From assembly GCA_944371315.1 (NCBI GenBank), contig CALVXN010000007.1, forward strand, positions 1 through 34,436: a stretch of DNA of 34,436 nt, in the 5' to 3' direction. Of the stretch, positions 2,739-10,200 are shown piece after piece. The stretch is from an uncultured Bacilli bacterium. GTDB lineage: Bacteria > Bacillota_I > Bacilli_A > RF39 > UBA660. Every line of letters starts with the position of its first letter. Positions within the stretch are counted from its first letter, which is position 1. The translations under genes were made by a program, and so were the position numbers. The notes under the pieces are model-generated. The model was not told the origin of the DNA and searched no databases. It was given only the letters and a program-made list of their open reading frames with translations.

Positions 2739-3866
2739 ATGGATATAAATATTGATAATTTAGTTGCAGATTTGAAAGTTGATTATAAAGACCAGAGTGT
2801 ACTAACAACACCATCACCTGAATTAGAAAAAGTAAACCAGTTTTTTTCTGATATTACTTCTAATGATAAAGGTGTAGAAAATTTGTTATTTCAAATACTG
2901 GGAAATGCCATGTGTAAGACAGCCGTTATGCAAAAAGCCTTTATCTTCAAAGGCAAAGGCAGGAATGGCAAGAGTCGTTTGTTTAGAATACTAGAGGCTA
3001 TTTTGGGAGAACAACAATGTTCTTATGAAACTTTAGAAACTCTTTCGGGAAATAAATCAGGTAGTAAAACAAATGCTAGATTTTTAAAAGGATGTACGGT
3101 TAATATTAGTGAAGACCAGCAACAACCCAGATATATTAATCATTCTATACTTAATAAGATTATATCAGGAGATACTATTTCAGAAATTAAAGGTAAAGAA
3201 AGAATAGTATTTAGACCTTATGCAACAATGTTGTTTTCTGTAAACGATGTGATAGACTTCAAAGAAACTAAAATATGTATTACTGATAGAATCGTAGTCA
3301 TTCAATTCAATTCAACGTTTATTGAAAATCGTAATATTAACATTGAATATGAATTATGCCAACCAAAAGCATTGCAAATAATAGCAACTAGAGCTATTAA
3401 TGCTTTTAAAGAGGTGTTAAAAAATGGGAAATTCACTATACCTCCTGTCGTGGAGTTAGAAACAAACAGATACTTTATGGACTGTAATAATGTGATAGAA
3501 TTCTGTAATTTGTTTCCAATAAAGGAATTTATGGTTAAAGACAGATACCATAAAGAATACTGTAAGTGGTGTGCTTCAAATAATTTAGAAGCCTACAATA
3601 ATGTTAAATTTGGTAAAGAAGTATTAAATTTAGGATATCGTTCTGAAAGATTTACTTTTGGTAGAAAGAAAATCACTTGTTATGTTTCTCCAAATTTTAA
3701 CAATACTGAAAACAAGAATATTTATCATAGATATCTCAAGGAAAATGGTATAAGTGAGGAAGCTGGTAGGATATATGATGAAGCTACATTAGTAGCAACC
3801 TTTGGTATTCCCCCATTTGATGAGTACTTATGGAAATGCAATAACAATACAGAAAATACTAAATAA
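2739..3866 (+). CDS. D5-like SF3 helicase (replication protein)
   Basis: A 375-residue helicase of the phage/plasmid P4/D5 type, expected to unwind the element's origin. Walker A is GKGRNGKS (72-79), the Walker B-like motif is VNISED (121-126), the sensor strand is MLFSVND (164-170) and the likely arginine finger is in DRIVVIQF (R184). A C-terminal winged-helix-like region (about 250-345) follows. The primase domain usual in larger members is absent, so priming must come from the host or this is a helicase-only initiator. Start chosen after GAGGAAAGGA; it is cotranscribed with xis. Origin-like repeats lie directly downstream. Confidence 0.88.
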   Translation: MDINIDNLVADLKVDYKDQSVLTTPSPELEKVNQFFSDITSNDKGVENLLFQILGNAMCKTAVMQKAFIFKGKGRNGKSRLFRILEAILGEQQCSYETLETLSGNKSGSKTNARFLKGCTVNISEDQQQPRYINHSILNKIISGDTISEIKGKERIVFRPYATMLFSVNDVIDFKETKICITDRIVVIQFNSTFIENRNINIEYELCQPKALQIIATRAINAFKEVLKNGKFTIPPVVELETNRYFMDCNNVIEFCNLFPIKEFMVKDRYHKEYCKWCASNNLEAYNNVKFGKEVLNLGYRSERFTFGRKKITCYVSPNFNNTENKNIYHRYLKENGISEEAGRIYDEATLVATFGIPPFDEYLWKCNNNTENTK

Positions 3867-3873
3867 CTCGATA

Positions 3874-4126
3874 ATGCCTCTCCTAGGCTCTGACAGGCTC
3901 TAGGAGAGCTTTTATCATATAGGGCGATAAAAAATTTGTAAAAATAGTTATGCCTCTCCTAGGGTCCCCCTAGTTGCATAAGGAGGTTTTAATAGGGAAG
4001 CCCTAGGAGAAGCATAACTTCATATTTAGGAATATTGCTATGCCACTATGCCACTATGGCATATATAGTATATTTAATTTTAAATTTATAATCAAATATA
4101 AGAAAACTATAGTTATTTCACTATAG
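3874..4126. other. Putative replication origin with iteron-like repeats
   Basis: This non-coding stretch behind the helicase is rich in ordered repeats. ATGCCTCTCCTAGG occurs at 3874-3887 and 3950-3963. A 19-bp inverted repeat with one mismatch spans 3946-3964 and 4001-4019 (AGTTATGC... / ...GCATAACT). Further on are ATGCCACT twice then ATGGCAT (about 4039-4062), and a palindromic ACTATAGTT twice (about 4107-4128), embedded in AT-rich DNA. Repeats next to an SF3 initiator gene are typical of satellite and plasmid origins, which is the basis of the call. Confidence 0.6.
3878..3914 (+). terminator. Hairpin after the helicase gene
   Basis: CTCTCCTAG (3878-3886) pairs perfectly with CTAGGAGAG (3900-3908), followed by CTTTTATC. 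It could end the cro-xis-rep transcript, though the T-tract is short. Its stem also forms part of the origin-like repeats. Confidence 0.5.
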
Positions 4127-4291
4127 TTAATTCTTACTAATTTTTCTAATATCTACTTTACTTTCATTTTCTAAATTATTCTTCTCATTACATTTTGAAT
4201 TATTATTATACTTATTATTTTTTGAATTTGAATTTTGATTATTATTATTGTTGTTATTATGATTACTTATACTATTAGAATTATTTATCAC
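4127..4291 (-). pseudogene. Asn-rich reading-frame remnant
   Basis: The leftward frame reads VINNSNSISNHNNNNNN, then QNSNSKNNKYNNN and a charged tail ending VDIRKISKN. It looks like the Asn-rich C-terminal tail of a larger protein, such as a plasmid or phage replication initiator. No credible start exists: the only candidate is a GTG at 4291 without a ribosome site, and the frame is closed upstream. It may be a truncated gene whose front was lost or replaced by the structured block at 4295-4530, or simply TTA/ATT-rich DNA. Confidence 0.3.
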
Positions 4292-4294
4292 GTA

Positions 4295-4530
4295 GTCAAG
4301 AAAAACTTAAGCCTCACACACTTTAGAATTTCTTTCAAATTGTTGATATTTACATTATTAAACAACTACGGTCAGATAAATTAACGGTCTGGGTTCTTAT
4401 GTGTTACCACATAATGTCCAGTATGACGGTCGGGTCGAGGTTGTTTTAACAACAAAAATACTTAGGTGTGAACTAGTATTCAAGGACTCCACAATTGTTC
4501 CGTATCTGACTTGACCAAGTTTTTTAAAAA
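4295..4530. ncRNA. Compact, highly structured block; candidate RNA or cis-acting site
   Basis: Self-complementary segments are dense here and G+C looks higher than in the surroundings. Outer pairing: GTCAAG (4295-4300) with CTTGAC (4510-4515). Inner long-range stem: GTCAGATA (4371-4378) with TATCTGAC (4503-4510). Hairpins: CTGG (4389-4392)/CCAG (4418-4421) closing TTATGTG-TTAC-CACATAA (4397-4414); GTTGT-TTTA-ACAAC (4440-4453); AATACT/AGTATT (4457-4462, 4475-4480). The last loop contains GTGTGA (4466-4471), which can pair with TCACAC (4314-4319) as a pseudoknot. All frames are closed. Strand is undecided; a rightward RNA would end in the T-run at 4521 or the terminator at 4570. It could instead be part of the origin. 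Confidence 0.45.
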
Positions 4531-4598
4531 TCATTACATTAAAGATAAGATATACCTTTTTTAATGATTAGGACATTATCTCTTATTGGGTCCTTTTT
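4526..4598. terminator. Paired terminators downstream of the clpP-like operon
   Basis: Two adjacent hairpins are visible. AATCATTA...TAATGATT (about 4529-4568), read leftward, is followed by T residues and would end the clpP-like operon. AGGAC (4570-4574)/GTCCT (4590-4594) followed by TTTT ends transcripts coming from the left. Confidence 0.6.
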
Positions 4599-4670
4599 AA
4601 TAATGTAATAGTAAATATTTTTCGTATTCACTATCATAATATATATAACCTAATCCGATTTTAATCACAT

Positions 4671-5255
4671 TTAGTTTTTAACTAACACTTTATCGACTAA
4701 ACCATATGCAAGTGCATCTTCTGCATTAAACCACTTGTCTTTTAATTGAATATCATCTCTAACTTGTTCAATACTTTTTCCTGTATTATCTGATAATAAC
4801 TTTATAATGCGTTCATTTAAAGCATTAGAATGTTCAAAATCAATTTTTACTTCTCCGATTTTACCTATATTAATTGTACTTACTTCATGTATCATAACTT
4901 CACTATTCGGAGTTATATATCTTTTGCCTTTTGTTCCACCACTAAGAATTACAGCAGCCATTGAAGCACATCTTCCAATACATATTGTTTGAATATCGCT
5001 TTTTACCATTTGCATTGCGTCATAAATAGCCATTCCTTCGGAAACAGTACCACCAGGAGAATTAATATAAAATATTATATCTTTCTTGCTTTTCATAGAA
5101 TCTAGTTTTAATAGTTGTTCTACTATTTCATCAGCTTCTTCTCTGCCAATAGACTTATTTAAACGAATTATACGATTATCAAATAATTTTATTTCAGAGG
5201 GGGTTTTAGGTTTAGTCTCTTTCTTCTTTTTCTTTTTTGGTTTCTTAGTACTCAT
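4671..5255 (-). CDS. ClpP-like serine peptidase
   Basis: A ClpP-fold peptidase of 194-197 residues. Numbering from the upstream ATG at 5264, the triad is complete and correctly spaced: S101 (GRCASMAA), H126 (SEVMIHEV) and D176 (QLKDKWFNAEDA). The substrate-handling motif YINSPGG (66-72) is present. The N-terminus differs from housekeeping ClpP: a lysine tract of about 20 residues replaces the propeptide/axial-loop start. I prefer the ATG at 5255 because the AGGAAGG site abuts the upstream one. It is last in a leftward operon after an MBL nuclease and SSB. No Clp ATPase is in the element, so it would have to use a host unfoldase or act alone. Role unknown; it may be regulatory proteolysis or defence. 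Confidence 0.9.
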   Translation of the reverse strand: MSTKKPKKKKKKETKPKTPSEIKLFDNRIIRLNKSIGREEADEIVEQLLKLDSMKSKKDIIFYINSPGGTVSEGMAIYDAMQMVKSDIQTICIGRCASMAAVILSGGTKGKRYITPNSEVMIHEVSTINIGKIGEVKIDFEHSNALNERIIKLLSDNTGKSIEQVRDDIQLKDKWFNAEDALAYGLVDKVLVKN

Positions 5256-5287
5256 ATTTTTCATTCCTTCCTAATTTATTATAAATA

Positions 5288-6475
5288 CTATATGTCGTAT
5301 GCCTTCTTGTTCTTTAAATGCTTAACTTTGTATGGTAAATTTAACTTATCAAAATCATGTGAATTTTCTCCATGTATAGGAATAATTACTTTGGGCTTTA
5401 CTATATTACAAACTTCGGTAATTCCTTTAGCAGTAGCATGACCACTAGAATGTAAATAATAATATTCTTTTGGAACAAACTTAACAATATTTTCATCAGC
5501 AGTTTTGCCTTGCAAGTATCCTAACCATTGTGAATAAATAAATAAATTGTCCTTGAAATTAGGGCTATTAACAAACTTTTTTGAAAAGTAATTGCTTCGC
5601 ACTAACATACAAAAGCCTCGATTTATCATATCTTCATAAAACTTACCATCAAAACTTTTAACATCTGAAAAATTATAATAATCAGTATGTTTTAAAGTGG
5701 TTTTGGTTACATAATCAAGTATCTCTTTTTGGTAGTCATCACAAATAAATAGTTTAGTTCCTGCTTTTCTATTTGCATGATAGAAAGAAGCTATCCTATC
5801 AATATTGGTAGAAGCACACATAATAAAGACATACTTATTATTTTTTATCAAGTCTATTGCTTCCTTTTGTAATTCAAATTCAGACATAAGGATTTCATCA
5901 ACTCTTGAAAGGGTAGTATGTTCACAAATGAGAATATCAACATTTCCTACATCTTCAAGTATTTTAGGAATAAGTCGACCAAGAGGACCATGCATTCTAA
6001 AATCTCCAGTATGTAAAACTCTTTTACCATCGGCTTCAATAAGAAACATATAACTATCAAAAGCAGAATGGTCTATGCGAATAGGGGTTAATCTCATATC
6101 TCCAATTTCAATAGTTTCTTCAGGTCTAAAAGTTTTAAAAGTTTTAATTCTGTCAATATGTTCTTGAGTAACTTCTGCAATACTAGGCTCTTTCATTCTC
6201 TTTTGGTAGATCGTAAATATTTCTTTGGCTTGTTCTCCAATGTAAATAGGAACTTCTTTCTTAACCTGCATATATTCCCCAATGTGGTCTAAATGATAAT
6301 GAGAAATAAAAACAGCATCGCATTTTTTACTAACCTTAGCAACATTCACTTTTACTTTACTATCACAATTTGGTAGATTAGTTCCAACATCAATAAGTAT
6401 TTTTGCTTTTTTACTTCTAATTTCAGTTACACATCCCCCAATTTGATTAATACCTCTGTGAATTTTGATTTGCAT
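5288..6475 (-). CDS. Beta-CASP metallo-beta-lactamase-fold nuclease (RNase J-like)
   Basis: A 395-residue MBL/beta-CASP protein, the group of RNase J and CPSF-type nucleases. Metal ligands are visible: HYHLDH (59-64), H136 (IDHSAFD), D158 (HTGDFR), and the late histidines H346 (SSGHATA) and H368 (IPIHGEN). It is shorter than RNase J (about 550) and lacks most of the C-terminal domain. It is expected to cut or trim RNA, possibly DNA. It lies 14 bp after ssb and 32 bp before the ClpP-like gene (start at 5255) in one leftward operon. Two places in its message, 6369-6380 and 6202-6211, are complementary to the loop of the candidate small RNA. Confidence 0.88.
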   Translation of the reverse strand: MQIKIHRGINQIGGCVTEIRSKKAKILIDVGTNLPNCDSKVKVNVAKVSKKCDAVFISHYHLDHIGEYMQVKKEVPIYIGEQAKEIFTIYQKRMKEPSIAEVTQEHIDRIKTFKTFRPEETIEIGDMRLTPIRIDHSAFDSYMFLIEADGKRVLHTGDFRMHGPLGRLIPKILEDVGNVDILICEHTTLSRVDEILMSEFELQKEAIDLIKNNKYVFIMCASTNIDRIASFYHANRKAGTKLFICDDYQKEILDYVTKTTLKHTDYYNFSDVKSFDGKFYEDMINRGFCMLVRSNYFSKKFVNSPNFKDNLFIYSQWLGYLQGKTADENIVKFVPKEYYYLHSSGHATAKGITEVCNIVKPKVIIPIHGENSHDFDKLNLPYKVKHLKNKKAYDI

Positions 6476-6489
6476 AAGTATATCCCTTT

Positions 6490-6804
6490 CTACTTTTGAT
6501 TTAATAACTCTCTATTACTTGATAAGAATGTTACTTTTTCAGCAACGACTTTGATTAGATTACCTTCTTTACTTTCTAATCTTCCTCTAATCCCTATTAA
6601 GTCGTTTTTCTTGCAATATTGAAAAACTTTACTTCCAACATAATTTGTTAAATCAATAGGTAAAACATCAGTTTCATAAACACCATTTTGATTTTTGAAA
6701 TTACGACTAATATTCAACATAAGTTGATAAGTAACTTGGTCATTCACTTCAATTTTTTCAACATCATTATATATTTTTCCAATTAGCATAACGTGATTAT
6801 TCAT
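6490..6804 (-). CDS. ssb: Single-stranded DNA-binding protein (SSB family)
   Basis: A 104-residue OB-fold protein opening MNNHVMLIGKIYNDVEKI with 'YQLMLNISRN' and 'DVLPIDL..VGSKVFQYCKKNDLIGIRGRLE', the standard SSB strand pattern. It is shorter than chromosomal SSB and lacks the acidic C-terminal tail that recruits host replication proteins, as in some phage and plasmid SSBs. It probably coats single-stranded DNA exposed by the element's SF3 helicase. GGAGATGA precedes the ATG. It is second in the leftward operon. Confidence 0.88.
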   Translation of the reverse strand: MNNHVMLIGKIYNDVEKIEVNDQVTYQLMLNISRNFKNQNGVYETDVLPIDLTNYVGSKVFQYCKKNDLIGIRGRLESKEGNLIKVVAEKVTFLSSNRELLNQK

Positions 6805-6832
6805 GATTTCATCTCCATTTCTTTATTAGGTT

Positions 6833-7405
6833 TTACATAAACATAGTTCTTTTTTTATCGTAACAATACTTTGAACATCTTTTCAACACAGTTTTTTTTG
6901 GTCTTGTTAATCCTTTCTTATTAAAATAATACCTATTAATTAAATATTTCACATAAGCACTTGTGTACTCTTGATGATATAGATTTTCAATATATCTTTG
7001 CACCTCAGGAATATTTCTGTGTCTCCGAAGTAGCTTTAATTGCTCGGATATATTATTCTTTTGTTCCAGAATGTTTTTAACTACAGGTGGAGTTTTGTCT
7101 CTTACATCAGCAAACTCTTTAAAAGTGATTTTATGATTTAAATACTTGGTTAATTTATAAATATAATATAGAGCTATATGTTTAGTAAATTCAATTTTAA
7201 AATCAAAATCTTGTATTTGCTTAGTGTATAAAACATAAGAATAGTTTTTTTCCTTATTATATACAATAACTTCTTCTCCATTTGGTTTAAGTTTAAGATT
7301 AGTAAAAACTGCTTTTGTCTTATTCTTACTAGTCTTTGCAACTTGAATATTGTTAAAAACTAAGTCTAAAAAGTAATAGACTTCTTTTTCAAAATCTTGC
7401 TTCAT
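6833..7405 (-). CDS. Hypothetical protein, first gene of the SSB operon
   Basis: A basic protein of about 190 residues that I do not recognise. The middle (about 95-150) has predicted helices with KEFADVRDKTPPVVK and LRRHRNIPEVQRYIENL; the end is rich in K, R, Y and C (RCSKYCYDKKRT). No catalytic motif, signal peptide or membrane segment is evident. The start is put at the ATG after AGGTG rather than the TTG five codons upstream. Its place directly before ssb suggests a replication or nucleic-acid role, which is inference only. Confidence 0.7.
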   Translation of the reverse strand: MKQDFEKEVYYFLDLVFNNIQVAKTSKNKTKAVFTNLKLKPNGEEVIVYNKEKNYSYVLYTKQIQDFDFKIEFTKHIALYYIYKLTKYLNHKITFKEFADVRDKTPPVVKNILEQKNNISEQLKLLRRHRNIPEVQRYIENLYHQEYTSAYVKYLINRYYFNKKGLTRPKKTVLKRCSKYCYDKKRTMFM

Positions 7406-10081: not shown

Positions 10082-10097
10082 CCATCCCGAACAGAGA
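10082..10097 (+). repeat. attR core (direct repeat)
   Basis: Identical to 110-125. Upstream sequence (GTGTAATTCGT) does not fit 5S while downstream sequence does, so this is where element DNA ends and host 5S resumes. Confidence 0.85.
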
Positions 10098-10151
10098 AGT
10101 TAAGACCTAATACGCCGAAGATAGTGTAATGCGAAAATAGGTAGTTGCCAA
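10098..10151 (+). rRNA. rrf: 5S rRNA, 3' half of host gene
   Basis: The second half of the split 5S gene: GAAGTTAAGA region, helix II partner ACCTAA, the ACGCCGAAGATAGT block, and helix I partner GTTGCCAA (10144-10151), which pairs with TTGGTAAC at 77-84. A run of nine T follows. By itself it lacks any promoter-proximal half, so it cannot give a normal 5S unless the element excises. Confidence 0.9.
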
Positions 10152-10200
10152 TTTTTTTTTGCAATAAATTATGAAAATAAATAAATCGTAAAATAATATT

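Follow-up and report, generated by a model that had tools for sequence, protein, structure and literature searches.

A conserved structured RNA of apparently uncatalogued class carried by P4-type integrative elements of uncultured gut Bacilli

An integrative element of an uncultured Bacilli bacterium carries, next to its primase gene, a conserved structured block of about 350 nt. The block is best explained as an orphan structured RNA, uncatalogued before, that is cargo of P4-type integrative elements and acts as RNA; we put the probability of this reading at roughly 0.6. The element lies within the 34,436-nt stretch of DNA analysed here (the window). An earlier note, made from the letters of the window, had proposed an element-encoded structured RNA of no known class, and covariation, conserved synteny and the lack of an Rfam match bear this out.

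The source genome (about 1.09 Mb in 58 contigs, 93% complete) has uncultured gut Bacilli as its close relatives. Genes for an integrase, a repressor and a primase make the block part of a P4-type integrative element of about 10 kb. The block itself is intergenic and lies between convergent genes: that for the primase on the plus strand, and the ssb / MBL / clpP operon on the minus strand (Table 1). The RNase-J-like MBL protein matched no defence family with any weight (LmuA, 20 bits only). As first supposed, no coding frame accounts for the block, and no reading frame is conserved across homologues. An Asn-rich minus-strand frame of about 55 codons (4293 to 4128) lies beside the RNA; it was rejected as a protein, since stops break the frame in most homologues. 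At 4486-4490, an invariant unpaired GGAGT on the minus strand resembles a ribosome-binding sequence, with no conserved start codon behind it.

Table 1. Positions in the window of the structured RNA, its helices and the neighbouring features
Feature	Position	Strand	Description
P4-family primase/helicase	2739-3866	+	TIGR01613, 130 bits (cut-off 108.7)
Intrinsic terminator	4098-4128	-	AACTATAG..CTATAGTT-TTCTTAT
Conserved structured RNA, whole extent	4291-4636	- (probable)	11-element alignment and covariation; if minus, 5' end near 4636 and 3' end of structured part near 4291
Core domain	4364-4510	- (probable)	Window absent from model R1, yet 93 bits, E 2e-19
P1	4291-4296 / 4365-4370		CGTAGT / ACTACG; complementary, invariant in all
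P2 hairpin	4298-4334		Loop 4312-4320; predicted contact to P6 loop (TCACAC/GTGTGA)
H3	4350-4359 / 4599-4608		TTACATTATT / AATAATGTAA; long-range; C-G to U-A and A-U to G-C changes
P3	4371-4378 / 4503-4510		GTCAGATA / TATCTGAC; compensatory changes in 3 pairs
P4 hairpin	4389-4421		CTGG 4389-4392 / CCAG 4418-4421, with TATGTG-TTAC-CACATA 4398-4413; covariation in outer and inner stem
P5-position hairpin	4440-4453		GTTGTTTTAACAAC in window, where it forms; TTAAGGTAGACTTTAA in homologues
P6 hairpin	4457-4480		Bulged T, 7-nt loop 4466-4472; both-side changes in 5 of 9 pairs
H8	4530-4568		Hairpin of variable length, kept though sequence and length differ
H9	4571-4593		GGAC/GTCC, conserved loop ATTATCTCT; invariant
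H10 hairpin	4608-4634		On minus, continuous helix with a G.U pair
Promoter-like motif	4637-4657	-	TATATATTAT, preceded by conserved letters; lies shortly after clpP; consensus match only
clpP	4671-5264	-	Pfam PF00574, 8.6e-58
RNase-J-like MBL hydrolase	5288-6475	-	HxHxDH present; 75-98% identity between elements
SSB	6490-6804	-	Pfam PF00436, 1.8e-08

With the primase as query, relatives were identified in the same bacterial family, where nhmmer located the block downstream of primase; a 17-base motif search of the genome collection added further copies. The complete RNA with adjoining clpP is present in 11 elements of related uncultured Bacilli, the window counted. L063 holds a further copy of the core, and contig ends truncate the copies in L024 and L033. 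The synteny is constant: the RNA always lies between a P4-type primase gene and opposite-strand ssb / MBL / clpP. (One element, L025, also has a transposase-like frame, IS256-like by eye, between primase and RNA at about 4867-6900.) The other homologues are 87-100% identical among themselves and 68-73% identical to the window. Between homologues the core is 91-95% identical where the flanks reach only 22-71%, which indicates that most core letters matter.

Confirmed copies are confined to this one element family in the 392 genomes of the phylum and the IMG/VR collection searched. Across those genomes, the window is the only match to model R1, which describes the 137-nt core in plus-strand letters and was built with the window left out. 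In IMG/VR, searched with two RNA motifs as well as the primase and MBL proteins, there were pattern matches only, none confirmed by R1; candidate L135, at 16 bits and E 1, was taken as chance. BLAST of phages and plasmids revealed no relative, and the weak AT-rich matches of an order-wide DNA search were discarded. Known large RNA families, with which the earlier note had urged comparison, proved equally silent. Rfam cmscan of the window at gathering score found tmRNA, 5S and tRNA elsewhere and nothing for the block; at E<=10, the block and two homologues gave nothing of weight on either strand. ROOL, GOLLD, OLE, raiA and HEARO were matched in neither search. The best E<=10 match, mir-282, falls on hairpins at 3934-4030, outside the block. 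A riboswitch or T-box was also set aside: beyond the RNA, the minus strand has no conserved gene before its terminator, and on the plus strand clpP is convergent.

The evidence for a fold comes from comparison of the homologues. In the core alignment that includes the window, 98.1% of cells are paired and 10 of 35 pairs have changed on both sides; alignment A5, having been adjusted to fit the structure, is biased in favour of it, and in so small a family (the window and 8 distinct cores) the covariation derives largely from the divergent window. None of 500 shuffles reaches either figure. Sliding the pairing partners by 1-3 columns leaves 34-43% of cells paired, and 0-2 pairs changed on both sides. 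Compensatory changes thus exceed both controls in the covariance test that the earlier note had named, as is expected of a structured non-coding RNA. The P3 changes are also seen on a plain MAFFT alignment, and the P3, P4 and P6 strands can be compared directly. Single-sequence folding energy is no better than that of shuffled sequences (z -0.56 on plus, -0.80 on minus) and so is uninformative; the case for structure therefore rests on comparison.

Every local pairing that the earlier note named can be read in the letters of the window. The predicted 8-bp long-range stem, P3, is present and covaries: homologues carry the variants GCTAGATA/TATCTAGC and ACTAGATA/TATCTAGT. An invariant extension pairs CGG 4385-4387 with CCG 4500-4502. 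Among the predicted local hairpins, P4 and P6 exist and covary; P5 exists in the window, and its position, which lacks covariation proof, possibly forms a different hairpin in homologues. An alternative helix, AATTTGGG/CCTAAATT, possible in homologues, is lost in the window, and P6 is preferred for this reason. Two proposed features did not survive comparison: homologues lack the outer stem GTCAAG/CTTGAC, and the TACGG/CCGTA switch is not conserved, with ACTACGAC in about half of them.

The complementarity of GTGTGA (4466-4471) to TCACAC (4314-4319), also noted at first, turns out to link two hairpin loops, that of P6 with that of P2. In the window these loops can form an unbroken run of 6 pairs, which 0.3-1.3% of random loops would be expected to match. 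In homologues both loop sequences differ from those of the window and are complementary again (ATTTGGG with CCCA), giving 3-4 pairs plus flanking matches; in L025 complementarity is weaker, at 3 pairs. The P2 loop of the window pairs poorly with the P6 loops of other elements. A loop-loop contact between P2 and P6 is thus supported, at the level of sequence, by change in both loops with complementarity kept.

The extent first assigned, about 230 bp (4295-4530), contains the core and is too narrow, in that conserved structure continues to about 4636. In this wider region, the outer helix H3 was recovered independently by RNAalifold on both strands. P1 is invariant, which is consistent with a helix; it would cross H3, either as a pseudoknot or as an alternative pairing.

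Base changes and flanking signals indicate that the RNA is probably made from the minus strand. Read as plus, A.C cells outnumber G.U cells by 11 to 6 (few counts, from the tested helices in nine homologues). An A.C read as plus is a G.U read as minus, and so the pattern favours minus. On the minus strand the P4 tetraloop is GUAA in the window and GCAA or GCGA in homologues, all GNRA, and P2 is the more stable on this strand in 8 of 11 elements. A minus-strand terminator lies beyond the block in all elements scanned, with the 4098-4128 hairpin in most. Between clpP and the RNA, elements that carry it have the TATATATT motif, which also occurs in L027 and L031, where the RNA is lacking. A simple promoter scan found 13 sites versus 6 in shuffles, a weak signal in AT-rich sequence. 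On the plus strand P5, P6 and H9 gain slightly in stability, and the RNAalifold consensus energy is slightly lower (-102.9 versus -97.9 on minus). That energy, together with an invariant G.U in P5 when read as plus, speaks for a separate plus-strand RNA with a promoter near 4248-4281, as the earlier note implied. However, such an RNA would have a UYRC loop on P4 and the excess of A.C cells, and the window contains no plus-strand terminator between the block and clpP; plus terminators lie upstream, directly after primase. We consider a plus-strand RNA unlikely, though a serious contender.

RNA identity does not follow primase identity (Spearman -0.07) and weakly tracks that of clpP (0.31) and MBL (0.36), these values being drawn from pairs that are not independent. 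The primase of L023 is 91% identical to that of the window and its RNA only 70%; compared with L032, its RNA and clpP are 97% and 98% identical and its primase 43%. Recombination has thus uncoupled primase from RNA. Moreover, the RNA is missing from three elements, L027, L030 and L031, that do possess primase, clpP and MBL; the genomes concerned (G150, G325 and G334) were searched with the model and yielded no copy. Because the RNA is separable from primase and absent from these elements, it appears to be cargo that can be exchanged in the slot past clpP, and not a replication origin. Where the RNA is absent, that slot holds other content: a 131-aa frame in L030 (2382-2777, reverse-complement coordinates), and short frames with ..FSNSV.. 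in L027 and L031.

The same pattern tells against a DNA element, whether an origin, a replication-control site like P4 crr, or a transfer site, with the hairpins acting as single-stranded DNA. The element does encode a P4-type primase and an SSB, the block adjoins the primase gene, and repeated hairpins lie nearby. However, a P4-type origin or crr would be present wherever the primase is, and three elements whose primase is related and whose operon is the same lack the block, which tracks clpP instead. The suggestion of an origin part, or of a packaging or transfer site, is therefore not upheld. In addition, long-range pairs that nest, a GNRA loop and contact between two loops are features typical of RNA, and it is the region 3860-4240, not the block, that is common to all primase types, including those of elements without the RNA. 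We rate a DNA element as very unlikely. Directly 3' of primase, at 3870-4070, strong hairpins accompany the repeats CTATGCCACTATGCCA; these could be a crr-like origin of the P4 kind.

A closer rival is that the RNA is a structured 3' part of the ssb-MBL-clpP mRNA that acts in cis, for stability, processing or attenuation, with no function in trans. The RNA directly follows clpP in the same orientation, ahead of the minus-strand terminator, and its subtype tracks the clpP subtype. However, the operon persists without the RNA in three elements, a promoter-like motif separates clpP from the RNA, and constraint over about 150 nt far exceeds the need of a stabilising hairpin; a purely cis role seems improbable to us. 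A degenerate group I intron is scarcely credible. The strands of H3, the P3 domain, P1 and P2 come in the order of the intron's P3, P4-P6, P7 and P8, with P1 and H3 crossing, so that helix order around the pseudoknot resembles the intron core. However, there is no intron-family match at E<=10, no exons or interrupted gene, and no covariation proof for the crossing helix P1; the P7 and J8/7 consensus was not seen.

The preferred reading, an orphan RNA carried as cargo, suggests the following course. A minus-strand transcript would begin immediately past clpP and end at the 4098 terminator, arising either from its own promoter or by read-through of the ssb-MBL-clpP operon. The transcript would adopt a compact fold in which long-range P3 closes a multi-hairpin domain (P4 with its GNRA loop, P5 and P6), H3 forms an outer helix, and the P2 loop docks into the P6 loop, with a possible P1/H3 pseudoknot. 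Presumably the functional product is the folded RNA itself and not a peptide. By analogy, its action may be in trans: a protein of the host or the element, or the ribosome, would bind to it or use it as a scaffold. For RNA processing or partnership, the adjoining RNase-J-like MBL would be the first candidate. A bolder version, in which RNA and MBL, perhaps with ClpP, form an RNA-protein machine for defence, counter-defence or control of the host ribosome, is quite speculative.

The host 5S rRNA gene is the site of insertion: the element interrupts it, between copies of a 16-bp direct repeat, CCATCCCGAACAGAGA, at 110-125 and 10082-10097. The host gene is split into a 5' part (76-125) and a 3' part (10082-10152); joined, the flanks cover 105 of 105 bases of intact 5S genes of relatives at 89-95% identity. 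Just inside the left end of the element is a complete 5S gene (189-293, 62 bits), the only one above the Rfam cut-off in the genome. The element thus appears to carry the host's only intact 5S gene, although the assembly is 93% complete and another could be missing. Three further genomes (G258, G278 and G157) likewise have a single 5S gene above cut-off, borne by the element, and in L023, L025, L029 and L049 a 5S gene lies beside a related integrase. The element family appears to supply its hosts with their only intact 5S rRNA gene. Among the papers searched, none was found to describe an element integrated in a 5S rRNA gene.

With a covariation-supported fold, this compact RNA family would be an addition to the few orphan RNAs retained by mobile elements. 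Its size suits it to probing and cryo-EM, and its conserved nuclease-like neighbour offers a testable partner.

OLE and raiA are orphan structured RNAs, found mostly in Firmicutes-type bacteria. The RNA described here is also orphan and structured; however, OLE and raiA are chromosomal families, whereas this RNA is element-borne and matches none in Rfam. Phage satellites encode non-coding RNAs too, such as the PLE transcript and the P4 regulatory RNA (PMC7567579). The present case is again a non-coding RNA of a satellite-like element, here with a P4-type primase, although the likeness is one of behaviour only and no homology is claimed. ROOL and GOLLD are ornate RNAs encoded by phages and prophages (PMC12286853). 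They share with this RNA a mobile-element setting, structure with pseudoknots and loop-loop contacts (here predicted), and orphan status. They are larger, at 660-800 nt or more, with no match in sequence or structure; they assemble as homo-oligomeric RNA cages; and they often lie near tRNA genes, whereas this RNA belongs to an integrative element with no tRNA nearby and no confirmed IMG/VR homologue. On the best reading, it would be comparable in kind to ROOL and GOLLD, while standing outside those families.
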